Origin: Sphaerotilus sulfidivorans
GTDB lineage: Bacteria; Pseudomonadota; Gammaproteobacteria; Burkholderiales; Burkholderiaceae_C
NCBI RefSeq assembly: GCF_013426975.1
Contig: NZ_JACCPY010000037.1
Span: 1-37,150 of the forward strand
Direction of reading: 5' to 3'
DNA length: 37,150 nt
The notes under the pieces are model-generated. The model did no database searches and was not told the DNA's origin. It worked only from the letters and a program-made list of their open reading frames with translations. Below are positions 5,773 through 17,852 of this stretch, piece after piece. How positions within the stretch are numbered: position 1 is the stretch's first letter; each line of letters starts with the position of its first letter. The position numbers and the translations under genes are program-made.

Positions 5773-6204
5773 TTAACCCATATGGGTATATCGCCCCACC
5801 TGGGTATCGGCTTCCATCTCCGCCAGCCCGCGCAGGATGCCGCAGGCATCAACGGCCTGCTCCACCTGGCATTGCTGACGCAGTGCCCCGAGCTGCTGCT
5901 TCAGGTGCAGCAGTTCAGCGATCCGGGCATCGACATGCCCGATGTGGTCATCCAGCAGCGTGTTGACGGCCCCGCAGTCCTCGGCCGGTGTGTCCTTCAG
6001 ACGCAGCAGCCCGCGGATCTCCTCGTGGGTCATGTCGAGCGCACGGCAGTTGCGGATGAAGCGCAGGCGCTCCAGGTGGCTGGCGTCGTAGTGGCGGTAG
6101 TTGGACTGCGTCCGGCCCGCCTCGGCCAACAGCCCCGCCTTTTCGTAGAAGCGCACGGTCTCGGTCGTGCAGCGGGCGGCACGCGCCAGTTCGCCGATCT
6201 TCAT
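5773..6204 (-). CDS. cadR: MerR-family Cd(II)/Pb(II)-responsive regulator, CadR/PbrR type
   Basis: This 143-residue regulator starts MKIGELARAARC with the MerR winged-helix DNA-binding domain (VRFYEKAGLL, NYRHYD). A long dimerisation helix follows, with three cysteines at C77, C112 and C121. That spacing is characteristic of the CadR/PbrR group, where these thiols bind Cd(II), Pb(II) or Zn(II). MerR proteins bind between the -35 and -10 boxes of overlong promoters and realign them when metal binds. The gene is divergent from DUF3703, and a promoter with a 19-bp spacer (6229-6259) lies in the 61-bp gap. It probably controls that promoter and itself. The second regulator at 8259 has cysteines at the same positions, so shared operators are possible. 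Confidence 0.88.
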   Translation of the reverse strand: MKIGELARAARCTTETVRFYEKAGLLAEAGRTQSNYRHYDASHLERLRFIRNCRALDMTHEEIRGLLRLKDTPAEDCGAVNTLLDDHIGHVDARIAELLHLKQQLGALRQQCQVEQAVDACGILRGLAEMEADTQVGRYTHMG

Positions 6205-6228: not shown

Positions 6229-6261
6229 TTGACATTGTAATTACTCGAAGGTTTTCACTGG
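6229..6261 (+). promoter_or_regulatory. MerR-type metal-responsive promoter/operator before the DUF3703 gene
   Basis: The -35 box TTGACA (6229-6234) and -10 box TTCACT (6254-6259) are separated by 19 bases, the overlong spacing used by MerR-family regulators. The spacer holds TTGTA and CGAAGGT, as in CadR/PbrR-type operators. It matches the promoter at 8651-8683 at 25 of 33 positions. Only 6 bases separate the -10 box from the ATG at 6266, so the transcript is probably leaderless. Confidence 0.75.
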
Positions 6262-6265
6262 TGCC

Positions 6266-6664
6266 ATGATGAACACAACGCCGCCCTCCGTAGCCTTCGA
6301 TCCGGTTCTGTTCGCGCACGTGATGCAGCAGTACCGGGAAACGTCACCGCACGATCCTGCGCACCAGTGGCTGCTGCTGGAGACGCTCCATGTCGTCAGC
6401 CAGACGCGGTTCATTCCGCACTTGAAGGTGCATGACCTGATGCTGCACCTGGCATGGCGGACCCGTGACTGGGCCGAGGTGGGCGGGCAGACGCTCCGGC
6501 TATTGTTGGTGCCCCTGGGACACCTCACCGGCCGACTGCCCCTTGGCAACTCAGGACGCTCCGACATCAACCCGTTCAAGCCGATGCCGCTGCGCCGCGA
6601 TCTGTCCGACGTGATTGCGCAAGCCCGCCAAGCCATTGCCAGCGCCGAGCAATGCTGTCCCTGA
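6266..6664 (+). CDS. DUF3703 domain-containing protein
   Basis: This 132-residue protein is predicted to be cytosolic, with no signal peptide. It contains the DUF3703 signature: an H-x-W-x-LLE helix near residue 26, RFIPHLKVHDLMLHLAWR near 48, and the conserved end PLGHLTGRLPLGNSGRSDINPF near 83-104. The family is frequent in heavy-metal resistance clusters of proteobacteria, but its biochemical role is unknown. The start has no Shine-Dalgarno sequence. The -10 box ends 6 bases upstream, which fits a leaderless mRNA; a second ATG follows at once (6269). The gene is the first member of the rightward metal module and directly faces the MerR operator, so metal induction is likely. Confidence 0.82.
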   Translation: MMNTTPPSVAFDPVLFAHVMQQYRETSPHDPAHQWLLLETLHVVSQTRFIPHLKVHDLMLHLAWRTRDWAEVGGQTLRLLLVPLGHLTGRLPLGNSGRSDINPFKPMPLRRDLSDVIAQARQAIASAEQCCP

Positions 6665-6676
6665 GGTGGCCGGCTC

Positions 6677-6682
6677 TACAAT
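6677..6682 (+). promoter_or_regulatory. Candidate -10 box (TACAAT) directly before the CzcI-like gene
   Basis: TACAAT ends 6 bases before the ATG at 6689. No convincing -35 box is visible, and no ribosome binding site lies close to the ATG. If used, it would give a leaderless mRNA. The gene could equally be transcribed by read-through from 6266. Confidence 0.35.
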
Positions 6683-6688
6683 CCCGCC

Positions 6689-7054
6689 ATGTGCAAGTGG
6701 TTGGCCATCCTTCTGTTGGTGTTGATGCCGCTGCAGCTCTCCTGGGCTGCAGTGGGTGCCTATTGCCAGCACGAGCGCGGACAGGCGGCGTCACATGCCG
6801 GCCATCACACGCATGAGCACCAACCGCAAGCCGAGTCCGATGTGCCGGCTGGCGAAAAGGGTGTGATGCCTTCGGCTGACGCAGACTGCGTGACCTGTCA
6901 TGCGGGTTGTGTGCTGTGGGCCATGCCGAGTCACCATGATCCTGTGCGCGTTCTCCCGCCAGTGACCCGTTCAGCCGACCCCGGGGCCGCGCTGGTGGCC
7001 CCAACTGCCGCTCGACCTGAACGGCCTCAGTGGACCCTCGCCTCGTTGCCCTGA
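6689..7054 (+). CDS. CzcI-like exported His-rich metal-resistance protein
   Basis: This 121-residue protein has a clear signal peptide (MCKWLAILLLVLMPLQLSWA) followed by AVGAYCQHERG, then a His-rich run AGHHTHEHQPQ and a later CVTCHAGC-type cysteine cluster. The N-terminal LMPLQLSWAA-YCQHE pattern followed by HH-H-H is typical of CzcI, a small periplasmic protein encoded ahead of czc-type cation efflux genes. In those systems CzcI is thought to modulate metal-dependent expression or to bind Zn/Co/Cd. Here no czcCBA follows; the next genes encode a Dsb pair and a CadA-type ATPase. The cysteine cluster C-x2-C-x3-C may add metal binding. Family call is moderate; function is inferred. Confidence 0.65.
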   Translation: MCKWLAILLLVLMPLQLSWAAVGAYCQHERGQAASHAGHHTHEHQPQAESDVPAGEKGVMPSADADCVTCHAGCVLWAMPSHHDPVRVLPPVTRSADPGAALVAPTAARPERPQWTLASLP

Positions 7055-7151
7055 CACGGGCAGAGTGAACTGACCCCTGGCTTGGGTTGCCAACGCACCG
7101 AAGTCAGGCCGCTTCACCGACACAGGCCGGGGTGCCTGAGCGGAGAACGAC

Positions 7152-7571
7152 ATGCACACCAAATCCTGGTGGCTCCTGATGGGGGCCTGGCTGATCGCAG
7201 CCCTGGCCACGGCCGGCGCCTTGTTCATCGGTGAAATCATGCTGATGGTCCCCTGCACGCTGTGCTGGTACCAGCGCATCTTCATGTTCCCGATCGCCAT
7301 CATTCTGACCATCGCCTGCTTCAGCGAAGACCGGCGCGGCGCGGTCTATGCATGGGCGCTGGCGGCCGGTGGCGCTGTGGTGGCGGGTTACCACACGCTG
7401 CTGGTGGCGGGGTGGATTCCAAAATCCTGGCTGCCATGCCAGGCCGGCATTTCCTGCGCAGACCAGAAACTCGACATCCTGAACGGCCTCCAGATTCCGT
7501 GGCTGGCTCTGGCCGCCTTCCTGCTGATCCTGATCCTCCTCACCCTCTTTTTACGGAAAACCTCTCGATGA
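7152..7571 (+). CDS. dsbB: DsbB-family disulfide bond formation membrane protein
   Basis: This 139-residue inner-membrane protein has four predicted hydrophobic helices (about 6-28, 42-58, 64-86, 114-134). It has the two DsbB cysteine pairs: C35-x2-C38 in PCTLCWYQR and C96/C102 in PCQAGISC. DsbB enzymes pass electrons from DsbA-type oxidases to quinone. The short form with a C-x5-C second pair resembles the BdbC group. Its stop overlaps the ATG of a thioredoxin-fold gene (ATGA at 7568-7571), so the two form an oxidase/partner pair. Within this cluster it may re-oxidise cysteines of exported metal proteins, but that is inference. A plausible ribosome site (GGAGA) precedes the ATG. Confidence 0.9.
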   Translation: MHTKSWWLLMGAWLIAALATAGALFIGEIMLMVPCTLCWYQRIFMFPIAIILTIACFSEDRRGAVYAWALAAGGAVVAGYHTLLVAGWIPKSWLPCQAGISCADQKLDILNGLQIPWLALAAFLLILILLTLFLRKTSR

Positions 7572-8236
7572 ACACCAAGATGAACACCAGGAAGATTGCG
7601 GTGGCCGTCGTGCTGGGCGTCATCGCGCTGGCCTTTCTGGTCGGCATGAACGTCTACCAGCGCAGCGTCCAGCAGGCACAGGAGGAGAAAGCCAGCCAGC
7701 AGAATGACCGGCTGGTGCGCCCGCACTCGCCGGTCTTCGGCCCGAAGGCAGCACCCGTGACGATCGTCGAGTTCTTCGATCCGGCCTGCGAGAGCTGCCG
7801 ATATTTCTATCCCATCGTCAAGGACATCCTCAAGAAGCACCCGGACGACGTGCGGTTGGTCCTGCGCTACGCCCCGTTCCACAGGGGGTCCGAGCAGGTG
7901 GTCGCACTACTGGTCGCTGCCAAGCTGCAAAATCAATACCAGCCGGTGCTGGAGGCGATTCTGGACGCGCAGCCGCAGTGGGCCGATCACGGCATGCCCA
8001 ATATCGGCATCGCGTTCAAGGTGGCGCAGCAGACCGGCCTTGACATGGACAAGGCCGCCACCCAGGCCCAAAGTCCCGAGACGCAAGCCGTGATCCGACA
8101 GGACATGCAAGACCTGACATCGCTGGGCGTGACCAAGACCCCGACGTTTTTTGTCAATGGACGCAGCCTGCTGAATTTCGGCCCCGAGCAACTGGCTGCC
8201 TTGGTGGCCGAAGAGGTGGCGAAAGTCAAGAAATGA
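7568..8236 (+). CDS. DsbA/thioredoxin-fold exported thiol oxidoreductase (CESC)
   Basis: The protein has 222 residues when started at the ATG that overlaps the dsbB stop; the frame is open further upstream, but that part lies inside dsbB. An N-terminal membrane anchor or signal (about 10-30) is followed by a thioredoxin fold with active site C74-E-S-C77 in FFDPACESCRYFYP and a cis-proline loop TKTPTFFVNG near residue 180. The sequence resembles BdbD/DsbA-like proteins that pair with short DsbB homologues. It would oxidise cysteines of exported proteins and be re-oxidised by the DsbB encoded just before it. The next gene, a MerR regulator, follows after 22 bases on the same strand. Confidence 0.88.
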   Translation: MNTKMNTRKIAVAVVLGVIALAFLVGMNVYQRSVQQAQEEKASQQNDRLVRPHSPVFGPKAAPVTIVEFFDPACESCRYFYPIVKDILKKHPDDVRLVLRYAPFHRGSEQVVALLVAAKLQNQYQPVLEAILDAQPQWADHGMPNIGIAFKVAQQTGLDMDKAATQAQSPETQAVIRQDMQDLTSLGVTKTPTFFVNGRSLLNFGPEQLAALVAEEVAKVKK

Positions 8237-8258
8237 CCTCGATATCTGCTCTGCCATC

Positions 8259-8654
8259 ATGAGAATCGGAGAAATCGCCCGAGCCAGTGGCGCGTCGGTC
8301 ACCATGGTCAGATTCTATGAGCGGGAAGGATTGCTGCCTGAGCCCATGCGCTCCGTCGGGAATTACAGAGTCTACGAAGGGCACCATGTCAGTTTGCTGA
8401 GATTCATATTGCATTGTCGCAGTCTGGGATTGACGCTGGACGAGGTGCGTTCGCTGCTGAAGTTCATGGCAATGCCTGATCAAGGGTGCGCGCTTGTGAA
8501 CCATCTGCTGGATGAACATATTGCTCGGGTCACTGAAAAAATTGGGCAACTCCAGACGCTGCAGAATGAGCTTCAACGCATCAGGGAAAAATGCCACGGT
8601 TCTGATTCACTGAGTCAGTGCGGCATCCTTCATGAACTGTCGAACCCGGCTTGA
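8259..8654 (+). CDS. cadR: Second MerR-family CadR/PbrR-type regulator, co-directional with the ATPase gene
   Basis: This 131-residue protein begins MRIGEIARASGAS with the MerR helix-turn-helix and wing (VRFYEREGLL, GNYRVYEG). It has cysteines at C77, C112 and C121, exactly the positions found in the regulator at 5773-6204. These define the CadR/PbrR metal site. The rest of the two proteins differs widely, and this gene looks less GC-rich than its neighbours, so it is probably not a recent duplicate. It lies on the same strand as its presumed target rather than divergent. Its TGA stop (8652-8654) falls inside the -35 box of the ATPase promoter (8651-8656). Transcription through the regulator would therefore cross its own operator. 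Confidence 0.88.
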   Translation: MRIGEIARASGASVTMVRFYEREGLLPEPMRSVGNYRVYEGHHVSLLRFILHCRSLGLTLDEVRSLLKFMAMPDQGCALVNHLLDEHIARVTEKIGQLQTLQNELQRIREKCHGSDSLSQCGILHELSNPA

Positions 8655-8683
8655 CCTTGTAGCCACTTCAAGGTGTCCACTGG
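8651..8683 (+). promoter_or_regulatory. MerR-type promoter/operator of the CadA-type ATPase gene
   Basis: The -35 box TTGACC (8651-8656) and -10 box TCCACT (8676-8681) are 19 bases apart. Between them lies the perfect dyad ACCTTG (8654-8659) / CAAGGT (8669-8674). The layout and sequence follow CadR/PbrR/ZntR operators and match the site at 6229-6261 at 25 of 33 positions. The stop codon of the upstream regulator overlaps the -35 box. Confidence 0.85.
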
Positions 8684-8706: not shown

Positions 8707-10932
8707 ATGGCCGGCTGCTGCGACCACCCACACGACAAGAAGTCCGCCCACGACGACCATGGGCACAACCATGCCAGCGCGCCCTGCGGCCCGGCACCCA
8801 CTGCGCTGCCGGATCTGCCCGCCCCTGAAGCGGTCGCAGGCGGGATGCGAACCCCGATCCGCATCCTGCAGATGGACTGCCCCACCGAGGAGGCCCTGAT
8901 CCGTCAGGCGCTGGGCCACCTGCCCTCGGTCCGGCACCTGGAGTTCAACCTGATGCAGCGCGTGCTGACCGTGGTGCATGCGCCGGAGGCCCTCGACACC
9001 GTGCTGGAGGCTGTGCGCTCGCTCGGTTTCCAGCCGGAAGTGCTGACGGCGGGCCAGCCCGTCACGGCTGCGGTCACGCCACCCAAACCCTGGTGGCCGC
9101 TGGCCGTGGCGGGCGCCGCCGCCATTGCCGCCGAAGCGGTGAGCTGGCGGGGCCTGCCCGAATGGCTGACGGCAGCCCTCGCGCTGCTGGCCGTGGCGTC
9201 CTGCGGGTTGACCACCTACCGCAAGGGCTGGGTGGCCCTGCGCCACGGCAACCTGAACATCAACGCGCTGATGAGCATCGCCGTGACCGGCGCGCTGGCA
9301 CTGCGGCAGTGGCCGGAAGCGGCCATGGTGATGGTGCTGTTCACGGTCGCCGAGCTGATCGAGGCCAAGTCGCTGGACCGCGCCCGCCATGCCATCGCCG
9401 GCCTGATGAAGCTGGCCCCGGAGATCGCCACAGTGCAGCAGGCCGACGGTACTTGGCGCGACACCGCGGCAACAGCGGTCACCGTGGGCAGCCTGGTGCG
9501 CGTCAAGCCCGGCGAACGCATCGGGCTGGACGGCACGATCGTCCAGGGCCGCTCGACCGTGAACCAGGCCCCGATCACCGGGGAAAGCCTGCCGGTGGAC
9601 AAGGGCCCAGGCGACGCCGTGTTCGCCGGAACGATCAATGCGTCCGGTGCTTTCGATTACCGGGTCACTGCGGCGGCGAACAACACCACGCTGGCCCGCA
9701 TCATCCACGCCGTCGAGGAAGCTCAAGGTGCCAAGGCGCCCACGCAACGCTTTGTCGATCAATTTGCCCGCGTCTACACGCCGATCGTGTTCGCGATGGC
9801 CCTGTTGGTGGCAATGGTGCCACCGTTGCTGATGGGCGGCATCTGGCACGACTGGATCTACAAGGCCCTGGTGCTGCTCGTGATCGCCTGCCCTTGCGCG
9901 CTGGTGATCTCGACACCGGTCACGATTGTCAGCGGGCTGGCCGCAGCGGCACGGCACGGCATCCTGATCAAGGGCGGTGTCTACCTGGAGGAAGGCCGCA
10001 AGCTGGTATGGCTGGCCCTCGACAAGACCGGCACGATCACCCATGGCAAGCCCGTGCAGACCGAATTCGAGTTGCGGGCCGAGGTGGACCCCGCACTGTG
10101 TCGCCGCCTGGCCGCCAGCCTGGCCGGTCGCTCCGATCACCCGGTGTCGCAGGCCGTGGCCCAGGCCGCCGACCGCGACGGCGTCACACGAGAGAGCGTC
10201 GAAGCCTTCGAGGCGCTACCTGGCCGAGGCGTGCGTGGGGTGATCGGCGGCCAGGCGTATTCGCTGGGCAACCATCGCCTGGTGCATGAACTCGGCCGCT
10301 GCACGCCGGAACTGGAGGCACGGCTGGACACGCTGGAGCGGCAGGGCAAGACGGTCGTCCTGCTCGTCGATGACCGGCAGGTGCTGGCCTTGTTCGCCGT
10401 GGCGGACACGGTGAAGGACAGCAGCCGCGCCGCCATCGCCGAACTACACCAGTTGGGGGTCAAGACCGTGATGCTGACCGGCGACAACCCGCACACGGCG
10501 GAAGCGATTGCGCAGCAGGTGGGGATCGACCAGGCCCGCGGCAACCAGTTGCCCGACGACAAGCTGAAGGCGGTCGAAACATTCGCCGCCGAAGGCCCGG
10601 TGGGCATGGTCGGCGACGGCATCAACGATGCGCCCGCCTTGGCCCGCGCCGACATCGGCTTCGCGATGGGGGCGATGGGCACCGACACGGCGATCGAGAC
10701 GGCCGACGTGGCCTTGATGGACGACGATCTGCGCAAACTCCCGGCCTTCATCCGCTTGTCACGCGCCACGCACGCAGTGCTGGTGCAGAACATCGTGCTC
10801 GCGCTGGGCCTCAAGGCGGTGTTCTTGGTGCTGACACTGATGGGCCTGGGGTCGATGTGGATGGCGGTGTTCGCGGACGTGGGCGCCAGCCTGCTGGTGG
10901 TGGGCAACGGCTTGAGGTTGCTGAGGAAGTGA
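8707..10932 (+). CDS. cadA: Cd(II)/Zn(II)/Pb(II)-exporting P1B-type ATPase, CadA/ZntA family
   Basis: Started at the ATG at 8707, which has an AAGGAGT ribosome site, the protein has 741 residues. The N-terminus is a Cys/His-rich tail (GCCDHPHD, DDHGHNHAS) followed by one heavy-metal-associated domain in which the usual CxxC is replaced by MDCPTEE. The membrane metal site is C395-P-C397 and the phosphorylated aspartate is D439 in DKTGTITHG. The SDHPVS motif and the hinge [11 protein letters not shown] are present. CPC together with the MDCPTEE domain is typical of the Zn/Cd/Pb exporters. It would pump these ions from cytoplasm to periplasm. The gene has its own MerR-type promoter (8651-8683). 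Confidence 0.93.
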   Translation: MAGCCDHPHDKKSAHDDHGHNHASAPCGPAPTALPDLPAPEAVAGGMRTPIRILQMDCPTEEALIRQALGHLPSVRHLEFNLMQRVLTVVHAPEALDTVLEAVRSLGFQPEVLTAGQPVTAAVTPPKPWWPLAVAGAAAIAAEAVSWRGLPEWLTAALALLAVASCGLTTYRKGWVALRHGNLNINALMSIAVTGALALRQWPEAAMVMVLFTVAELIEAKSLDRARHAIAGLMKLAPEIATVQQADGTWRDTAATAVTVGSLVRVKPGERIGLDGTIVQGRSTVNQAPITGESLPVDKGPGDAVFAGTINASGAFDYRVTAAANNTTLARIIHAVEEAQGAKAPTQRFVDQFARVYTPIVFAMALLVAMVPPLLMGGIWHDWIYKALVLLVIACPCALVISTPVTIVSGLAAAARHGILIKGGVYLEEGRKLVWLALDKTGTITHGKPVQTEFELRAEVDPALCRRLAASLAGRSDHPVSQAVAQAADRDGVTRESVEAFEALPGRGVRGVIGGQAYSLGNHRLVHELGRCTPELEARLDTLERQGKTVVLLVDDRQVLALFAVADTVKDSSRAAIAELHQLGVKTVMLTGDNPHTAEAIAQQVGIDQARGNQLPDDKLKAVETFAAEGPVGMVGDGINDAPALARADIGFAMGAMGTDTAIETADVALMDDDLRKLPAFIRLSRATHAVLVQNIVLALGLKAVFLVLTLMGLGSMWMAVFADVGASLLVVGNGLRLLRK

Positions 10933-10966: not shown

Positions 10967-11320
10967 ATGGAATCCAGCCCAGCCATTCTCTTGCTCAAGA
11001 CGCTCGGTCTTTTCATCGTGACCGCGCTCGCGGAGATCGTCGGCTGCTTCCTCCCGTACTTGTGGTTGAGGAAACAGGGGTCCGTGTGGCTGCTGCTGCC
11101 GGCCACATGCAGCCTGATGCTTTTCGTGTGGCTGCTGACCCTGCACCCAGTCGCCAGTGGGCGCGTCTACGCCGCCTACGGCGGTGTGTACGTCGCAACC
11201 GCGCTGGTCTGGCTGCGGGTGGTCGATGGCGTGAAGCTGTCCATGCTGGATTGGTTCGGCGCCGGGGTGGCCCTGCTGGGCATGTCGATCATCGTCGCAG
11301 GCTGGGATGGTCGGGGTTAG
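10967..11320 (+). CDS. ynfA: YnfA/UPF0060 family four-helix membrane protein
   Basis: This 117-residue protein has four hydrophobic segments (about 10-28, 40-58, 65-83, 92-113). It carries the UPF0060 signatures [41 protein letters not shown] and [12 protein letters not shown]. YnfA proteins are small multidrug-resistance-like membrane proteins; a role in efflux of cationic compounds has been proposed, but the natural substrate is uncertain. They are often found in metal-resistance clusters. The gene follows cadA after 34 bases. Its stop codon (TAG, 11318-11320) overlaps the stop codon of the convergent epsI gene, so this marks the junction between the GC-rich cadmium module and the AT-richer exosortase block. 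Confidence 0.93.
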
Positions 11321-12000
11321 TCAGTCAGACCAGCCAGACGCAGCCGGTCTGCGGCTGTGATCGACGCCAGCATTTCTTGGATGAATTTCTGCTGCATTGA
11401 AAATGCACGAGGCTTGTCGGTGTCGATGCTGGAGATTCTGAACAATAACCCGTCTGCAATATCGCCTTGCATGGCGTACGACATCTCCTTCAGTTTCTTG
11501 TCCAGTCCGGACTTGACCGCATGATTGCCGATGGTCGTCCAATAGGTGACCGGCTCGACCCTTCGAGACTGGAAAGTGGTTTCCAACTGCTTGATGGGAA
11601 TTTCACCGTAGGGTGTTGTCAGCGCCATCTTTCGTGAAGCCCCGACCTGAAACCCCTGGGCTGGGTAGCATATCTCGGGCAGATGCACCTGGAAGGAGTC
11701 GTTCTGGTTTTTTCCGTAAGCCATCGACAGCATGATCACGTAACCATCGCTTGATGTATAAGTCCTTGTGACCAGTTCGGTGTAAAGTTCATCGAGCAAT
11801 TGCTGCTGTTGTGGATTGACCACCCCAGTAGATAAGTCCATTTTTTTCCAGGCGCCAAAATTCTCTGGAATTATACTGGATATTTTTATGCCGCCTCTCG
11901 TGTCAGCCATGAAATTGGTTGGCTTGATTTGATTTGCAGAGAAGCCGCTGAGCAACATTATCGCGCATAGAGTAACGGCAGATGTGAGTTCGCGAGTCAT
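11317..12000 (-). CDS. epsI: EpsI-family exosortase-associated protein
   Basis: This 227-residue protein has an N-terminal signal or anchor helix (about 5-22). It contains the EpsI-family core: an early PENFGAWKK segment (45-53), and the signature H106-L-P-E-I-C111-Y-P in the middle, followed by GFQVG. EpsI proteins are encoded beside, or fused to, exosortases in PEP-CTERM systems; they are periplasmic, and their exact role in sorting is not resolved. The start overlaps the stop of xrtB (ATGA, 11997-12000), so the two are co-translated. It is the last gene of the AT-rich operon. No exopolysaccharide genes are nearby, unlike the usual EpsI context. Confidence 0.9.
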
Positions 12001-12887
12001 GATTTTCTGGCAAGAATGATTCTGAGGAATCCGTCAAACAAAATTATCAGCAGCAGTGCAGCCATAAAAAGAACCATTCCGGCGAAACCATGCAGAAAGC
12101 CTTGCCCCGCCTCATCGCCTAAATGATAAGTAATCAACGTCAATGCAATGACACGAATGATGTTGGCAGCAAAACTGATCGGCACGATACAGATTGCCAA
12201 GATGATGTTTCGCGCTACCGACTCATGTTTCACCAAATTGAGATAGAGCAAACCAAGAGCTTCTAGCGTGAACAGCGTGTTCAGTCCTGCGCAGGCGTCT
12301 GCAACCAACAATTGGTACTGTCCGATTTGCAGAATTACACCGCTGCGGCTGATGGGATACCCGACAGCATAGAGAGCAGACTCTACTGCGTAGGAAACGG
12401 CAGTCTTCATGGGCTGGGTCATGGCATCGACAAAGACTCCCGGCAGCGGAATCATGAAGACCATGAACACCAACGGGAACCACAGATGTTTCAAGGCTTC
12501 CATGCCCCGGAGAATCAGGGTGATACTCGCGGTCATGACGATGAGTGAACCCACCTCAAATATCAATATATTCTGGGATCTTCCGATGATGTACAGCAAT
12601 GATCCAAAGATCAGAAGAGACCAGCCTATTACAAAGGCTGGCCGTAACGGTGTCTCAATGACCTGAGGTGCTTTTTTCCCGAGCAGCCAGATCGAGACAG
12701 CCAGCACGATGGGGCCATGTCCTTGCTGATCTCCAGCCCACAGCCCATTGAACAGATCCCGAAAAGTGGGGAAATACATTCCCACTAATCCGATCAATGT
12801 TACAGCCCATGGAGCTATGATTTTTGTTATTGATGGCTTGAATATTGTGGCGATGTTGTCGATAGGGGCGGAGTTGATTTTTGTCAT
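11997..12887 (-). CDS. xrtB: Exosortase B, membrane cysteine transpeptidase-like protein sorting enzyme
   Basis: This 296-residue polytopic membrane protein has about eight hydrophobic helices. The exosortase active-site residues are all present: C199 in ADACAGLNTLF, R245 in AANIIRVIALT and H266 in GFLHGFAGMV. Early motifs GLWAGDQQGHGPIVLAVS (about 49-66) and FMIPLPG match exosortase B. Exosortases recognise a C-terminal PEP motif, transmembrane helix and basic tail on exported proteins, and cleave or transfer them at the outer face of the inner membrane. No such substrate is encoded in this window. The gene is coupled to epsI and follows dsbA after a 101-base gap. No strong ribosome site is seen. 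Its base composition is far AT-richer than flanking DNA. Confidence 0.92.
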   Translation of the reverse strand: MTKINSAPIDNIATIFKPSITKIIAPWAVTLIGLVGMYFPTFRDLFNGLWAGDQQGHGPIVLAVSIWLLGKKAPQVIETPLRPAFVIGWSLLIFGSLLYIIGRSQNILIFEVGSLIVMTASITLILRGMEALKHLWFPLVFMVFMIPLPGVFVDAMTQPMKTAVSYAVESALYAVGYPISRSGVILQIGQYQLLVADACAGLNTLFTLEALGLLYLNLVKHESVARNIILAICIVPISFAANIIRVIALTLITYHLGDEAGQGFLHGFAGMVLFMAALLLIILFDGFLRIILARKS

Positions 12888-12988
12888 ACACGTTGAATTG
12901 CATGTTTAAAAATGAGAGCGGGAAATGGTCGGGATTGATGTAAATATATCTGGAGTGGCCATGGTGCAGCTTTCGCCCTTGAGCAGAA

Positions 12989-13645
12989 TTATTGCCGCTT
13001 GACGGTTGATCGCTGCTGGTCGATCAATTGATTTAATACTTCAAACACTTGGGCTTCGCCTCCTGCTTGATGAGGCTCCGTGCTGAACTGTCCATTGATG
13101 ATGAATTTGGGTACGCCATCAATTTTGTAAGCATTGGTCAGGGATCTCATTTTGTTGACCTGGGCTTGCATGCCGAATGACTTATGCATGGAATCAAACG
13201 CCTTGCTGTCTATGCCATTCTTGTCAACCCAATTCTTGATCGAGCCCTCTTCTCTGAAGTTGATGCGGTCTTTGTGCAGAGCCTCAAAAACAGCCGGGTG
13301 ATGCCTGGGGAGAATGCCCATTGCGCGTAGCGTCGCAAATATTTGGGCGTGAATGGATGTTTCCTTGCGTGAATCCCAGACAATATGCTCTCGTCGAAAG
13401 GCAACATCGGCTGAAAGCTTTTTTTCCCAGGCATCCACCATCGGATCAATTTTTGCGCAATGCGGGCAGCCGTACCAAAAAAACTCAATCACCTCAATCT
13501 TGCTCGGGTCAGTTGTTGGAATCGAGGGACTTATTCTGGAAAATGCACCTTCAGTACCATGATCTCCTGCTGCCTGGACCCAATGCGGTACGGAAAACAG
13601 TCCAAGTGAAATCGAGGTGGTGATTGTTCTTCGCAAATGATTCAT
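12989..13645 (-). CDS. DsbA-family thiol:disulfide oxidoreductase (CPHC)
   Basis: Started at MNHLRRT the product has 218 residues with a Sec signal peptide ending HWVQAA. The thioredoxin fold carries C60-P-H-C63 in FFWYGCPHCAKI and the cis-proline loop GVPKFIING. CPHC is the DsbA active site, so this is expected to oxidise cysteine pairs in the periplasm. An upstream in-frame ATG at 13687 would add 14 residues and begin 3 bases after the SCO stop; I prefer 13645 because the signal peptide then begins normally. A stand-alone DsbD alpha domain lies two genes upstream in the same operon, so oxidising and reducing thiol functions are both present. Confidence 0.88.
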   Translation of the reverse strand: MNHLRRTITTSISLGLFSVPHWVQAAGDHGTEGAFSRISPSIPTTDPSKIEVIEFFWYGCPHCAKIDPMVDAWEKKLSADVAFRREHIVWDSRKETSIHAQIFATLRAMGILPRHHPAVFEALHKDRINFREEGSIKNWVDKNGIDSKAFDSMHKSFGMQAQVNKMRSLTNAYKIDGVPKFIINGQFSTEPHQAGGEAQVFEVLNQLIDQQRSTVKRQ

Positions 13646-13690
13646 GGTGTCTCTGACATGAAGTGTTTCTGTTGATGAACTTTGCATGCG

Positions 13691-14305
13691 CTATGCAAGA
13701 AGGGCTTTGATGTCCCCAGAGAAGTCAGCGGCTGATTGCTCATGCTTCATCGCGAGGCGCAATAGCCCATGTGTATCGAATATATAGGTCAGCGTGGTGT
13801 GATCCATCGTGTAGGATTTTCCTGTCACCACTTTTTGATAAAATACCTTGAATTCCTTCGCCATCTCGGCGGTCGCTGCAGTACTGCCGCGCAAGGCAAT
13901 AATTCGCTTGTCGAATGCACCAACATAGCTGCGCAGAAGAATTTCTGTATCTCGCTCGGGATCAATTGTGACGAAAATGGGTTGCAGTTTTCTGGCATCG
14001 TCTCCTAACAATCGAATGACCTCAGTGGCTCGCCCAAGTGCCGTTGGACAGACGTCCGGGCACTGTGTAAACCCGAAAAACAGCATGACAATGCTGCCTT
14101 TGAACTCAGACAGGGTTCGAACCTTCCCATCTATGTCTGTCATGCTGAAGGATCGACCGAATATTGCCCCGGTTAAATCCAGTCCTTTGAATGAATACGG
14201 GACACGCTTCTCGCAGCCCACTAGAATCATGGCTGACCATGCGGTCATGGTCAGCCATGTGCGGCGGTTCAAAGCAGGTGATACATCCATGGGGTGGGTT
14301 GTCAT
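13691..14305 (-). CDS. SCO1/SenC-family copper-chaperone lipoprotein
   Basis: The chosen ATG overlaps the preceding stop (ATGA, 14302-14305) and gives 204 residues; the frame is open further upstream but inside the previous gene. A lipobox MILVGC places the lipidated cysteine at C31. The SCO fold has the copper site C82-P-D-V-C86-P in GFTQCPDVCPTALG and the distal H169 in MDHTTLTYIFD. SCO proteins deliver Cu to the CuA centre of cytochrome oxidase or act as thiol-disulfide switches. As a lipoprotein it could be processed by the LspA encoded in the same operon. Here it sits with DsbA and a DsbD alpha domain rather than with oxidase genes. Confidence 0.9.
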   Translation of the reverse strand: MTTHPMDVSPALNRRTWLTMTAWSAMILVGCEKRVPYSFKGLDLTGAIFGRSFSMTDIDGKVRTLSEFKGSIVMLFFGFTQCPDVCPTALGRATEVIRLLGDDARKLQPIFVTIDPERDTEILLRSYVGAFDKRIIALRGSTAATAEMAKEFKVFYQKVVTGKSYTMDHTTLTYIFDTHGLLRLAMKHEQSAADFSGDIKALLA

Positions 14306-14844
14306 GGCTGTTTTTTCTCCGGCAACTTGCCAGACGCCATGCCATTGACTGGGTTCAGCTTTATCTCGGAAGTTTGGGGCGGATAACAAACCCCCAACGT
14401 CTCGAAACAGCCTTGATAACGCGCAACCAGAGTAATTGGAGAGGAGTTTTTCTCGTTGCCTGCTATTAGCCCATGAACTTCAAAGGATTTTGGGTACACC
14501 TGTGTGGGACCGAAACTCTTATCCTGCTTGGTGATTGCTGCCGGATAGTCCGCGCGCAACAATCGCACTCCTGGCGAGCCTTTTATTTCTAGGCTCACCT
14601 TGTCCTTGTATAGATAGTAATCAGGTTTCAATGTAAACAGCACATTGATCTTGCCGGGATCTATCAAGCGCGCTGAAACTTGAAATGCCTGTTCAGGAGG
14701 AAGTGGCTCGACAGTCTTCTTGCCGAACAAGGCATTCACTGATCCTGGCTCTGCCGCGCTGAGATCTTGAGAATGAATGCCGCAGACCACGAACAGCATT
14801 GCGCCCCAGATTGCGTGATGTCCAGTAGGTGAAGTTATGGTCAT
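14302..14844 (-). CDS. Stand-alone DsbD N-terminal (alpha) domain protein
   Basis: This 180-residue exported protein corresponds only to the periplasmic alpha domain of DsbD. It has a signal peptide (about 10-31), the segment FGKKTVEPLPPEQAF, the conserved LKPDYYLYKDKV, and the active-site end YQGCFETLGVCYPP with C146 and C153. In full-length DsbD this domain hands electrons from the membrane part to periplasmic clients. The membrane and thioredoxin domains are absent here, so an electron donor must come from elsewhere. There are six residues between the two cysteines, one more than in the common YQGCADAGFCYPP form. Overlaps with lspA and the SCO gene show tight coupling. Confidence 0.85.
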   Translation of the reverse strand: MTITSPTGHHAIWGAMLFVVCGIHSQDLSAAEPGSVNALFGKKTVEPLPPEQAFQVSARLIDPGKINVLFTLKPDYYLYKDKVSLEIKGSPGVRLLRADYPAAITKQDKSFGPTQVYPKSFEVHGLIAGNEKNSSPITLVARYQGCFETLGVCYPPQTSEIKLNPVNGMASGKLPEKKQP

Positions 14845-15353
14845 GGCGTGCTTTCAGGATTTGTGTTGGTGGCACCGAAACTGGTTATCAGCAGCAAAAA
14901 TGCCCCTGACACGACATAAATGTCTGCAATATTGAACGCAGGCCAATGCAAATCTCCCCAGTGAACATCAAGATAATCAATTACAGCCCCTATGCGCAGT
15001 CGGTCCAGTACATTCCCGAGTGCTCCGCTCATCAGCAAAACATAGGCGACACTTTCAGATGTACTGAGCACGCCTGTCCATAACAGACGAGTCAGAATTA
15101 CGCTGACAATAATTCCGAAAATACTGAGGAAATATTTCTGCCAACCACCGGCATCGGCCAGAAATGAAAATGCGGCACCAGGATTCAGAACATGCACCAG
15201 ATTGAACCATTCGCTTAATTGCTCAACTGTGCCGATGGGCATGACCAATGTCACGCCAACTTTTATTGCTTGATCTATTAAAATTAGCGCAGTCGCCAAA
15301 TAGAATATCGGTTGTCTGTGTAGACTGGAATTGAAAGCGTGACTTTTGGGCAT
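14841..15353 (-). CDS. lspA: Lipoprotein signal peptidase (signal peptidase II)
   Basis: This 170-residue inner-membrane aspartic protease has four hydrophobic helices. It has the family motifs: LNPGAAFSFL near 56-65, SGALGNVLDRL (109-119), and the two catalytic aspartates D126 (AVIDYLDVHW) and D144 (FNIADIYV). It removes signal peptides from lipidated precursors. Accessory LspA copies occur in metal-resistance operons (PbrC of lead-resistance systems is one), and here the downstream SCO gene encodes a lipoprotein that could be its client. It begins 6 bases after the small membrane gene and overlaps the DsbD-alpha gene by ATGA. It is probably an extra copy beside a housekeeping lspA elsewhere, which is inference. 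Confidence 0.94.
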   Translation of the reverse strand: MPKSHAFNSSLHRQPIFYLATALILIDQAIKVGVTLVMPIGTVEQLSEWFNLVHVLNPGAAFSFLADAGGWQKYFLSIFGIIVSVILTRLLWTGVLSTSESVAYVLLMSGALGNVLDRLRIGAVIDYLDVHWGDLHWPAFNIADIYVVSGAFLLLITSFGATNTNPESTP

Positions 15354-15359
15354 TGTTTG

Positions 15360-15494
15360 TCAGTTCATTATTTTGAATCTGGACAGGTATCCCAATAAAG
15401 ATGCAATGCCGAAGATGATCAAAAACGCTGCCGTCTTTCTGTTTCGGCGACGGAGTTGATTTTTACGCTGCTGTTCTGTTGATGCGTTGTCCAT
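15360..15494 (-). CDS. Small single-helix membrane protein, first gene of the exosortase operon
   Basis: Started at ATG 15494 this is 44 residues: a polar, basic N-terminus (EQQRKNQLRRRNRKT), one hydrophobic helix (AAFLIIFGIASLLGYL) and a short basic end. An alternative ATG at 15521 would add nine residues, but it overlaps the -10 box of the MerR-type promoter and so cannot lie on the mRNA. The charge pattern predicts a cytoplasmic N-terminus. The layout recalls the very small cytochrome-oxidase assembly proteins of betaproteobacteria, which would suit the SCO gene in this operon, but I cannot confirm homology by eye. The small size and weak ribosome site keep confidence moderate. Confidence 0.55.
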   Translation of the reverse strand: MDNASTEQQRKNQLRRRNRKTAAFLIIFGIASLLGYLSRFKIMN

Positions 15495-15519
15495 GAACGA
15501 TGATGGAGGTAAAAATTTC

Positions 15520-15550
15520 ATTTCAAACCCTGTAGCAGGTGTAGGGTCAA
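15520..15550 (-). promoter_or_regulatory. MerR-type promoter/operator of the exosortase B operon
   Basis: Read on the minus strand, -35 TTGACC (15550-15545) and -10 TGAAAT (15525-15520) are 19 bases apart. Between and overlapping them lies the dyad ACCCT (15527-15531) / AGGGT (15543-15547). This is the classic MerR-family architecture and closely resembles lead/cadmium/zinc-type operators. No regulator gene lies next to it; the closest candidates in the window are at 5773 and 8259. Transcription would start near 15513 and run through the small protein, lspA, dsbD-alpha, SCO, dsbA, xrtB and epsI. Confidence 0.75.
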
Positions 15551-15599
15551 ATTTATGTGGAATGCCCCTCAATCGTTTCAGGTTTTGACGGGGCACTGA

Positions 15600-15791
15600 G
15601 CTGAGTCCCATGACCATGAGCACGAACACGACGTGCTGGAACATGAGCATGCCCACCGACACGATGACGGACACCACGAGCACCTGCATGAACCCATGCC
15701 TGCAGGGGTACACAGCCACGCACACAGGCATGCCCCTGTCCGACATCAGCACGCCCATGTGCCGGATATGCACCATCTGCATCGGCACTGA
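15600..15791 (+). pseudogene. Remnant of a His-rich metal-binding protein gene
   Basis: The frame from 15600 to the TGA at 15789-15791 encodes 63 residues, with histidine at close to two of every five positions. Runs include DHEHEHDVLEHEHAHRH, DDGHHEHLHEP, HSHAHRHAPVRHQHAHVPD and MHHLHRH. Such HEH/HRH segments ending in a HxHVPDxHHxHRH pattern belong to exported or soluble Ni/Co/Zn-binding proteins. The frame is closed on the left by TGA at 15597-15599 and has no ATG before the His region; a GTG inside it is the only early alternative. It is therefore best read as the 3' end of a gene whose beginning was lost when the AT-rich block was joined. Other frames here give only low-complexity products. 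Confidence 0.6.
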
Positions 15792-15978: not shown

Positions 15979-16386
15979 ATGACGCGATCCTTCCTGCGGA
16001 TGATCTGCCGGATGCTGATCGGTGTCGTGCTGTTCGCGCAGCTCGCGGTGGCGGCATATGCCTGCCCGGGGCTGTCAGCGGCCGGTGCCCGGTCAATGGA
16101 CCCTGGCACAGCGGCGACGGTGCAGGCCGGGATGGATTGCGACGACATGGCCGGTTCGATGGATCCGTCGTCCGCCAACCTCTGCGCCGAACATTGCCGC
16201 CAGGGGCAGCAAAGTGACCAGGCCGCCACGTTGGCGCTGCCGGCCATCCTGCTCACCTCCCTGTACACCCTCCCCCTGGCCCCTGAGCCACCTTCTCCTA
16301 CCCCGCGCCAGATGGCCGAAGGGGCCAGTGCCCTGGCAGCGGCTTCTCCGCCGCACGCCATCCTGCACTGCTGCTTCCGAACTTGA
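15979..16386 (+). CDS. Exported Cys-containing copper-cluster protein of unknown function
   Basis: I do not recognise a named family. Started at the ATG at 15979 the protein has 135 residues. It has a signal peptide or anchor (MLIGVVLFAQLAVAAYACP), a Met/Asp/Cys segment (MDCDDMAGSMDP), a C-x3-C pair in NLCAEHCRQGQQS (about 73-77), a second hydrophobic stretch (LALPAILLTSLYTLPL) and the C-terminus HAILHCCFRT. Similar small proteins precede copper efflux operons in betaproteobacteria and are annotated only as hypothetical. The protein at 28360-28764 has the same plan: anchor, C-x3-C, hydrophobic segment and basic end. It probably has a periplasmic copper-linked role. cusC follows 134 bases downstream on the same strand. 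Confidence 0.7.
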   Translation: MTRSFLRMICRMLIGVVLFAQLAVAAYACPGLSAAGARSMDPGTAATVQAGMDCDDMAGSMDPSSANLCAEHCRQGQQSDQAATLALPAILLTSLYTLPLAPEPPSPTPRQMAEGASALAAASPPHAILHCCFRT

Positions 16387-16520: not shown

Positions 16521-17852
16521 ATGTTCCATCCTCCATGGCCCCACGGCGCTCGCCGGGTGCCTGTCCGTTGCCGCCTAACCGCGCTGCTTATTCTGGGCGC
16601 CGCGTGGGCTCCCCTCGCTAGCCACGCCCAGCCTGCCCTGACCCTCGACCAGGCCCTGCAACTCGCACAGGACCGCTCGCGCCAGCTTCCGGCACAGGAA
16701 GCCGCCGCCACCGCCGCCCGCGAGATGGCCGTGGCCGCCGGCCAGCGCCCCGACCCGACGCTCAAGGTCGGCCTCGGCAACCTGCCCCTCGACGGCCCGG
16801 ATCGGCTCAGCCTGACCCGCGACTCCATGACCATGCGCTCGGTCGGTCTGATGCAGGAGATCACACGCGGCGACAAGCTTGCGGCCCGGTCGGCGCGCTT
16901 CGACCGGGAGGCTGATGCCGCAGACGCAGCGCGTGTCGTGGCACTCGCCCACCTGCGCCGCGACACCGCGATGGCCTGGCTGGACCGCCACTTCCAGGAG
17001 CGCCTGCGCGAACTCCTGCAGAGCCAGCGCGTCGAGGCCGGCCTGCAGATCGAGGCCGCCGACGCCGCCTACCGGGGCGGACGGGGCGCGCAGGCCGACG
17101 TGTTCGCCGCCCGGTCGGCGGCGGCGCTGATCGATGACCGCCTGCGCCTGGCCGCGCAGCAGGTCGAGGCCGCCACGGTCCGGCTCGCCCGCTGGGTCGG
17201 CCCGGATGCGCAGCAGCCGCTCGGCGAACGCCCGCCACTGACCGCAGTTCCCGCAGCGGTGCATGACCTGGACACCCACCCGGACCAGCACCCCGAGATC
17301 GCGCTGCTGATGCGGCAGCAGGCCATCGCGCAGGCCGACGCCGACCTCGCGCAGCGCAGCCGGCGGCCGGACTGGAACGTGGAGCTGATGCTCGGCCAGC
17401 GCGGGCCGGCCTACTCGACCATGGTCTCCGTCGGGGTGTCGATCCCACTGCAGATCGACCTCAGAAACCGCCAGGACCGCGAACTCTCCGCCCGACTCGC
17501 GCTGGTCGAGCAGGCCCGCGCCCAGCGCGAGGACGCCACGCGGGAGCACCTGACCGAAACTCGCCTCCGGTTCCTGGCATGGCAAGGCAACCAGGCACGG
17601 CTGGCCCACTACGACCGCACGCTGCTGCCGCTGGCCGCCGAGCGCACGCAGGCCACGCTGACCGCCTACCGGGGCGGCAGCGGCTCGCTCGATGCAGTGC
17701 TCGACGCGCGGCGCCTGGAGATCGACACCCGCATAGACCGACTCCGACTCGACATGGAGACGGCCGGCCTGTGGGCACAACTCCACTACCTGACCCCGGC
17801 CGACCCTGCCGAGCGCCGCGCCGCTGCCATCCCCACCACCACGGACCAATGA
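16521..17852 (+). CDS. cusC: Outer-membrane efflux protein of the CusCBA system (TolC/CzcC family)
   Basis: The ATG at 16521 has a GGAGA ribosome site and gives 443 residues. A signal peptide ends at ASHAQP. The rest is the two-repeat TolC-like pattern: a first helical repeat with TLDQALQLAQDRSRQLPAQEA (about 40-60), and a second with GVSIPLQIDLRNRQDRELSARLALVEQAR (about 305-333). The helices are long and Ala/Gln/Arg-rich. It would form the outer-membrane channel of a tripartite Cu(I)/Ag(I) pump with CusB and CusA. There is no lipobox cysteine, unlike E. coli CusC. The stop overlaps the cusB start (ATGA, 17849-17852). Confidence 0.9.
   Translation: MFHPPWPHGARRVPVRCRLTALLILGAAWAPLASHAQPALTLDQALQLAQDRSRQLPAQEAAATAAREMAVAAGQRPDPTLKVGLGNLPLDGPDRLSLTRDSMTMRSVGLMQEITRGDKLAARSARFDREADAADAARVVALAHLRRDTAMAWLDRHFQERLRELLQSQRVEAGLQIEAADAAYRGGRGAQADVFAARSAAALIDDRLRLAAQQVEAATVRLARWVGPDAQQPLGERPPLTAVPAAVHDLDTHPDQHPEIALLMRQQAIAQADADLAQRSRRPDWNVELMLGQRGPAYSTMVSVGVSIPLQIDLRNRQDRELSARLALVEQARAQREDATREHLTETRLRFLAWQGNQARLAHYDRTLLPLAAERTQATLTAYRGGSGSLDAVLDARRLEIDTRIDRLRLDMETAGLWAQLHYLTPADPAERRAAAIPTTTDQ

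Follow-up and report, generated by a model that had tools for sequence, protein, structure and literature searches.

Two sheath-forming bacterial species carry an additional copy of a surface-sorting enzyme at the end of a set of metal-resistance genes, which is placed behind an apparent cadmium/lead-sensing switch. The first instance was analysed in a 37-kb contig of Sphaerotilus sulfidivorans (NZ_JACCPY010000037.1; contig C76 of genome G000, i.e. G000:C76), which was taken in its whole length of 37,150 nucleotides and is called the window. It carries a cassette of seven minus-strand genes (window 11317-15494) encoding, in the order of that strand, a 44-amino-acid membrane protein, a signal peptidase II (LspA), a stand-alone DsbD alpha domain (DsbD-alpha), a SCO lipoprotein, DsbA, exosortase B (XrtB) and the B-type EpsI. 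The reading preferred here, at a probability of roughly 0.55, is that the seven genes form one operon of a Cd/Pb/Zn-resistance regulon, which would be induced by metal and would supply extra envelope-maturation enzymes, including those of surface sorting. The cassette and its promoter are made up as follows (window positions; profile scores in bits).

15520..15550, minus strand: CadR/PbrR-type promoter, TTGACC-CTACACCTGCTACAGGGTT-TGAAAT, with a 19-bp spacer containing the dyad ACCCT...AGGGT.
15360..15494, minus strand: 44-amino-acid one-helix membrane protein, predicted start.
14841..15353, minus strand: lspA-type signal peptidase II, PbrC-like second copy (PF01252, 121.5 bits; cut-off 25).
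14302..14844, minus strand: stand-alone DsbD alpha domain with a C-x6-C cysteine pair, GCFETLGVC (PF11412, 90.8 bits; cut-off 25).
13691..14305, minus strand: SCO family lipoprotein, RefSeq frame (PF02630, 145.4 bits; cut-off 22.8).
12989..13687, minus strand: DsbA-family thiol oxidoreductase (CPHC), start perhaps at 13645 (PF01323, 52.5 bits; cut-off 25.6).
11997..12887, minus strand: xrtB, exosortase B, duplicate copy (TIGR03113, 393.5 bits; cut-off 275).
11317..12000, minus strand: epsI, B-type exosortase-associated protein, adjoining xrtB (NF045609, 265.7 bits; cut-off 220).

The seven leftward genes had been named in a sequence-only reading of the window, and the names agreed with the hidden Markov model (HMM) scores and the RefSeq frames. 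The stretch 11317-15560 was 100% identical to plasmid pSna507_unt12 of S. sulfidivorans D-507 (NZ_CP035709.1), the sole record with a near match to the cassette in the plasmid search. All seven frames were present in the PLSDB/RefSeq annotation table of this plasmid, where the small gene is listed as a 'hypothetical protein' with its start well upstream, at window 15980, and DsbD-alpha starts later (window 14799). The start of the small protein was placed at 15494 because the ATG at 15521 lies inside the -10 of the promoter, and because in G008, a genome of another species of the genus, this position reads ATA whereas the ATG matching 15494 is retained; the frame stays open upstream of this start. 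The GC content was 47-50% in the cassette, 60-73% in the adjoining stretches and 52-73% in the rest of the contig. Metal genes flank the cassette: cadR, cadA and ynfA on one side, a czcCBA-like RND efflux set and copper genes on the other.

Junction distances were measured from the starts in the open-reading-frame list, SCO being taken from 14305. A 6-bp gap separates the small gene from lspA. ATGA overlaps join lspA to dsbD-alpha (a 41-bp gap with the RefSeq start), dsbD-alpha to SCO, and xrtB to epsI (4 bp). SCO and dsbA are 3 bp apart, or 45 bp if DsbA begins at the ATG common to G008, and dsbA and xrtB are 101 bp apart. A consensus scan of this 101-bp gap returned no minus-strand promoter-like or terminator-like site, with totals near those of shuffles.

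The promoter lies directly upstream of all seven genes. Sites were counted by their mismatches to the pattern TTGACNCTN7CTNNAGGGT, those with two mismatches being considered weak. The cassette promoter had no mismatch and was the sole match at ≤1 mismatch in the window; none was obtained in 100 shuffles. The G008 site (L114:10833-10803) also had no mismatch and differed from that of the window by one spacer change. This architecture (TTGAC-type -35, 19-bp spacer, dyad) is like that of PpbrA, given in the consulted part of PMC3431237 as TTGACT, a 19-bp spacer with an imperfect dyad, and TTAAAT; the binding signals of PbrR and CadR are described as similar in an excerpt of PMC1526738. The same promoter type was found before pbrA in genome G165 (one mismatch), before cadA in G270 and G306 (no mismatch) and before the PAP2 gene of a Cupriavidus pauculus plasmid (one mismatch). 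Two candidate genes for the CadR protein, at 8259-8654 and 5773-6204, are on the same replicon. Because of the PbrR-type promoter, its recurrence before metal operons and the presence of cadR on the replicon, a response of the cassette to Cd, Pb or Zn is a well-founded inference from sequence. A single metal-type promoter ahead of all seven genes is consistent with their co-transcription.

The same seven genes were found in the same order in G008, on a 4.8-Mb contig (chromosomal, L114:6635-10804). Identity between the proteins of the window and of G008 was 89% for EpsI, 82% for XrtB, 80% for SCO, 76% for DsbA, 73% for LspA, 72% for DsbD-alpha and 70% for the small protein (over a 53-amino-acid frame). 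In G008, ynfA overlaps epsI by 4 bp on one side, cadA (90% identical) is found some 1.8 kb past ynfA, and the RND set with czcC stands on the other side. Recurrence of the gene order beyond the strain, for which the sequence-only reading had proposed a search, was thus found, but within the genomes searched only a single further Sphaerotilus species has it. Since G008 shares all seven genes and both flanks, chance assembly in a single strain is ruled out. The ratio of non-synonymous to synonymous divergence (dN/dS; Nei-Gojobori, one sequence pair per gene) ranged from 0.080 to 0.180 between the two cassettes; it was lowest for XrtB (0.08) and EpsI (0.085) and 0.13-0.18 for the other five genes. 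As the order is kept in G008, dN/dS is low and dS amounts to 0.7-1.4, the gene order is old and every gene has been under purifying selection.

Cys199, Arg245 and His266 of XrtB were invariant in 87/87 aligned rows, and His106 and Cys111 of EpsI in 86/86. The SCO translation has the lipobox LVGC and retains CPDVC and the His. DsbD-alpha is a 180-amino-acid frame with no second Pfam domain; it scored 74.7 bits against the 330 required by NF001419 and is not a full DsbD (alpha, membrane beta, gamma). The C-x6-C spacing was present in 6/6 aligned stand-alone DsbD-alpha sequences (alignment A1), and C-x5-C in the chromosomal DsbD of the host. LspA matched PF01252 only and has no PbrB/PAP2 phosphatase domain. 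It is 49-53% identical to the LspAs behind cadA/pbrA in G165, G270 and G306, 40% to the LspA near cadR in C. pauculus and 37% to the chromosomal LspA of the host. DsbA is 46-51% identical to the DsbA near a stand-alone DsbD-alpha in G186, G270 and G306. G000 has two copies each of XrtB, SCO and LspA, and the cassette XrtB is 68% identical to the chromosomal one. The chromosomal comparison was made with the longest frames, so wrong N-termini may inflate its dN and only paralogue identities were drawn from it; by the tree, the XrtB/EpsI copies on the chromosomes of G000 and G008 are also not orthologs in the strict sense. In the HMM search with NF038351, the profile of the cytochrome oxidase small assembly protein, the small protein was not matched at E<=1. 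A look-alike in G186 is 21% identical to it and scored 26.1 bits with NF038351 (cut-off 27.5).

Parts of the cassette recur in metal operons elsewhere in the order, a membership of LspA and DsbD-alpha in cadA/pbrA operons that the sequence-only reading had missed together with the CadR/PbrR-type promoter. A stand-alone DsbD-alpha of the same subfamily (42-49% identity) was found in four more genomes, G165, G186, G270 and G306. In G165, pbrA is followed by a PAP2-LspA fusion, as in PbrB/PbrC, and then by DsbD-alpha. In G270 and G306, cadA, LspA, DsbD-alpha and DsbA stand in line, and this lspA-dsbD-alpha-dsbA unit gave no SCO match; in G270, read gene by gene, a DUF3703 protein precedes LspA and a 169-amino-acid protein precedes DsbA. 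The G186 locus combines a small membrane protein with DsbD-alpha and DsbA, and no cadA was seen within the 20 kb read. On the C. pauculus plasmid, the PAP2 gene, a DUF5666 gene and a DsbD-alpha (38%) are in tandem, with cadR and lspA 4-6 kb off. Since CadR/PbrR-type sites precede cadA/pbrA-lspA-dsbD-alpha in G165, G270 and G306, lspA-dsbD-alpha (with dsbA in two genomes) is, from sequence, a PbrC-type unit of metal resistance that recurs. Among the loci compared, SCO and xrtB-epsI were added to the metal unit in Sphaerotilus only. An arrangement pbrR2-cadA-pbrC2 has been described in Cupriavidus metallidurans (parts of PMC2864759 and PMC3431237).

How far the full arrangement extends was delimited by several searches. 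A close DsbD-alpha was present in 2/399 genomes of the family at E<=1e-24 (G000 and G008 only). At the level of the order, 39/399 genomes matched at E<=1e-20, mostly through full-length DsbD frames. A profile search of the class gave 2/369 genomes at E<=1e-30, one further match lying in an 811-amino-acid frame that is not stand-alone. Short-frame matches were examined in G008, G165, G186, G270, G306, G114, G183, G157 and G476. Plasmids were searched by tblastn with DsbD-alpha or DsbA (1757 and 68 matching records), and no further cassette was seen in the four regions examined (H54, H65, H42 and H79); XrtB was matched by 39 plasmid records. All 13 genomes of the genus have an exosortase, and two exosortases were found in G000 and G008 only (2/13). 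Among 71 xrtB loci of the genome_contigs set, many of which end at contig ends and have incomplete flanks, none had DsbA, SCO, DsbD-alpha or LspA nearby (tblastn, E<=1e-3) and none had cadA or czcA (E<=1e-20). On these two counts, taken over partly incomplete flanks, a general link of XrtB with Dsb/SCO/LspA or with metal genes is rejected. A BY-kinase or chain-length homologue stood beside xrtB in 64 of the 71 loci, as judged with two exopolysaccharide (EPS) proteins as probes, both from L014, which is one of the 71. None was present in the window or in the G008 cassette locus, so the pair lies away from EPS genes, as the sequence-only reading had stated, and outside the usual context of exosortase B.

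The origin of the xrtB-epsI pair was examined in trees of 87 XrtB and 86 EpsI rows. Rows were the best tblastn stretch per locus (>170 letters, gaps removed), several being identical; L029 and L071 entered without their second copies, and shorter stretches were left out. The copies from the two cassettes formed one clade, whose nearest rows were the chromosomal copies of G008, of G004 and of L014, a locus of a Sphaerotilus metagenome-assembled genome in which xrtB and epsI overlap by ATGA within an EPS locus. Sister rows of XrtB were taken from the nearest-row and smallest-set output; the EpsI tree comes from a short search with support from the Shimodaira-Hasegawa-like approximate likelihood-ratio test (SH-aLRT) only, and long branches meet in it. 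The simplest history is that the pair was duplicated within the genus, captured behind the metal unit and later spread, on a plasmid in S. sulfidivorans and on the chromosome in G008. Arrival of the whole cassette as foreign low-GC DNA from one donor is ruled out, as xrtB-epsI branches inside the genus. Low GC is no proof of a distant origin of the pair either, because nearby chromosomal xrtB genes have a GC content of 46% (L014) and 54% (L163).

Candidate substrates of the exosortase were sought by their tails, as the sequence-only reading had suggested. Genome G000 has eight TIGR02595 (PEP-CTERM) matches, mostly with VPEP tails, all of them on contigs other than the window; a tail pattern that recovers all eight gave no match in the window, nor in the plasmid as a whole. 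PEP-CTERM matches were found in 13/13 genomes of the genus. G008 has 15, none inside the 20-kb cassette locus, where the tail pattern gave one match, in a frame antisense to czcC. With no tail on the plasmid and eight elsewhere, PEP-CTERM sorting, if any, therefore acts in trans.

Soft metals attack periplasm-facing thiols, and most of the cassette proteins act through such thiols. In the mechanism that we propose from these data, soft metal ions would be sensed by a CadR/PbrR protein whose gene is on the same replicon (cadR at 8259 or 5773); in its metal-bound form this protein would turn on the 19-bp-spacer promoter at 15520-15550. LspA would complete the processing of lipoproteins, including SCO; DsbA and DsbD-alpha would form and reset disulfides; SCO would hold or deliver copper; and XrtB/EpsI would release PEP-CTERM proteins, presumably the chromosomal ones, to the surface. 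As the probable benefit, metal-poisoned thiol enzymes facing the periplasm would be replaced or shielded during the rebuilding of the sheathed surface in the presence of the metal. A metal-driven set for surface maturation is plausible because, in the consulted parts of the sources, the sheath of Leptothrix cholodnii is a matrix held by disulfide bonds, S. natans being proposed to form its sheath similarly (PMC13386937), two PEP-CTERM proteins are up under Co(II) in Geobacter, with no rise of the exosortase itself given there (PMC7726332), and signal peptidase II is raised >3-fold under Zn in Mesorhizobium (PMC3668242). A bolder version makes exosortase sorting itself a part of the metal-resistance regulon: in sheathed bacteria, a Cd/Pb sensor would induce the second XrtB/EpsI along with the maturation enzymes for disulfides, copper and lipoproteins, and exported PEP-CTERM proteins would rebuild or load the disulfide-linked sheath as a metal sink. 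This version is put forward tentatively and is rather less than probable.

Several observations weigh against a metal-induced operon of seven genes. The cassette with xrtB-epsI is known in two instances only, and these are relatives by descent. The czcC flank has a dS of 0.33 between the two genomes versus 0.7-1.4 in the cassette, and the island therefore may not have travelled in one piece, unless codon usage is the cause. No promoter of this type was found at ≤2 mismatches in the smallTM-dsbD-alpha-dsbA locus of G186 or in a dsbD-alpha locus of a Massilia putida plasmid. Short DsbD-alpha-like proteins (31-37%) also occur in G114, G183, G157 and G476 without the cassette type of LspA, DsbA or XrtB alongside. 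As to function, LspA is an aspartic protease and is not accounted for by metal-poisoned thiols, though the SCO lipoprotein would require it; SCO points to copper and not to Cd/Pb; and DsbD-alpha stands alone, without the membrane domain that would supply its electrons. Finally, dsbA and xrtB lie further apart than any other neighbours in the operon, by 101 bp in the window and 72 bp in G008, and these two intervals are dissimilar.

This last point also speaks for the main rival, in which the genes from the small membrane protein to dsbA are functional and xrtB-epsI is an EPS-locus duplicate that landed behind them and was kept as a useful spare exosortase with no metal link. The trees agree with it, placing the cassette pair beside the chromosomal pairs of the G008/G004/L014 lineage, of which that of L014 has the same ATGA overlap, and so do the metal-unit parts without xrt in G165, G270, G306 and G186. 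Yet the pair has been held in its exact position in two species at a dS of 0.7-1.4, with the lowest dN/dS of the operon, and the simple consensus scan of the gap gave it no promoter-like site of its own; hitch-hiking is thus possible, and we doubt it. Assembly of a copper site is a less likely explanation. Here, under metal stress, the small protein, SCO, DsbD-alpha and DsbA would mature either the CuA of an oxidase or some other copper protein, with LspA processing SCO and XrtB/EpsI being incidental. The lipobox and metal motif of SCO, the 26.1 bits of the G186 counterpart with NF038351 and the role of TlpA-type thiol proteins in keeping the cysteines of SCO and CuA reduced (excerpt of PMC9145763) are in line with it. 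It is opposed by the plasmid annotation table, which lists no oxidase gene, by the small protein, for which the window gave no NF038351 match and G186 one below the cut-off, and by the lspA-dsbD-alpha-dsbA unit of G270 and G306 without SCO. The sequence-only reading had seen a self-contained maturation and sorting line for an exported protein. What stands of it is a real recurring unit linking disulfide handling, SCO, LspA and exosortase, and the required enzymes are present; self-containment does not stand, given that no PEP-CTERM-like tail is on the plasmid and that further XrtB, SCO and LspA copies exist in the genome. A line dedicated to one such protein is accordingly improbable.

The genes near the cassette are the following.

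8259..8654, plus strand: cadR, candidate regulator on the same replicon (TIGR02047, 152.3 bits; cut-off 151.45).
8707..10932, plus strand: cadA, Zn/Cd/Pb P-type ATPase (TIGR01525, 586.5 bits).
10967..11320, plus strand: ynfA (PF02694, 129.4 bits), convergent with epsI with a 4-bp overlap, likewise in G008 (L114:6285-6638).
16521..17852, plus strand: czcC, start of czcCBA (RefSeq TolC family protein), kept in G008.

A second Dsb pair lies in the metal island, where DUF3703, dsbB, a second DsbA-like gene, cadR and cadA are co-directional (window 6229-8681, plus strand); weaker CadR-like promoter candidates with two mismatches were seen at 6229-6259 and 8651-8681. In the window ynfA directly follows cadA, and in the G008 island a phosphoethanolamine transferase gene (EptA-like, L114 4506-6197) stands between them. 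A short His-rich frame with a GTG start only (15633-15791, plus strand, LEHEHAHRHDDGHHEHLHEP...HHLHRH) lies between the cassette promoter and czcC and is possibly the remnant of a metal-binding protein. Beside czcC, a 135-amino-acid exported-looking protein with several cysteines (15979-16386, plus strand) had no Pfam match and has a counterpart at the equivalent place in G008 (L114:11137-11616). On the plasmid outside the window (L173 15556-20044), genes for a hypothetical protein, a ThiF adenylyltransferase and a patatin-like phospholipase are in tandem and are CBASS-like by their names.

Among known systems, the Scs (suppressor of copper sensitivity) system is defined by the scsABCD gene set. 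The cassette resembles it in having metal-linked DsbA/DsbD-like periplasmic thiol proteins (parts of PMC8900818 and PMC5524982). It differs in lacking the scsABCD set, its only such proteins being a DsbD alpha domain, DsbA and SCO, and in its CadR/PbrR-type promoter. With the SCO/cytochrome oxidase assembly system it shares the SCO lipobox and, below the cut-off, the resemblance of the G186 counterpart to NF038351; unlike in that system, no oxidase subunits are annotated on the plasmid. As in the PEP-CTERM/XrtB-EpsI system of type B, the invariant residues are present and the host has PEP-CTERM proteins, but the pair stands outside an EPS locus, as a plasmid or island duplicate within a metal operon. 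Already known are both an exosortase on a plasmid (Desulfovibrio vulgaris; PMC1569441, in part) and, in other bacteria, lspA behind cadA. The closest likeness is to the pbr/cadA-pbrC operons of C. metallidurans, with which the cassette shares a CadR/PbrR-type promoter, an LspA-type (PbrC) gene, and cadA and czc nearby. In contrast to these operons, the P-type ATPase belongs to a different run of genes, which converges with the cassette from the opposite strand, and a PbrB phosphatase domain is absent; the PbrA ATPase and PbrB PAP2 of the pbr operon proper are thus not in the cassette, G165 having PAP2-LspA behind pbrA. The role of the PbrC-type LspA in lead resistance is still described as unsettled (PMC3431237, in part), and with the cassette one can ask, on definite genes, why spare lipoprotein peptidases and Dsb proteins are carried in metal operons, the proposed answer being the renewal of envelope enzymes. 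No exosortase metal operon of this kind was found in the titles and abstract openings of the open-licence PMC papers listed on exosortases, metal resistance and cadA/lspA/pbrR, and the word exosortase is absent from two papers on the genus. Exosortases are known from EPS loci, and a copy under a CadR/PbrR promoter beside a PbrC-type LspA would tie surface sorting to metal stress. Compared with the pbr/cadA-pbrC operons, the cassette adds SCO, DsbA, DsbD-alpha and exosortase B/EpsI; what is new is that an exosortase pair extends a metal operon of PbrC type.

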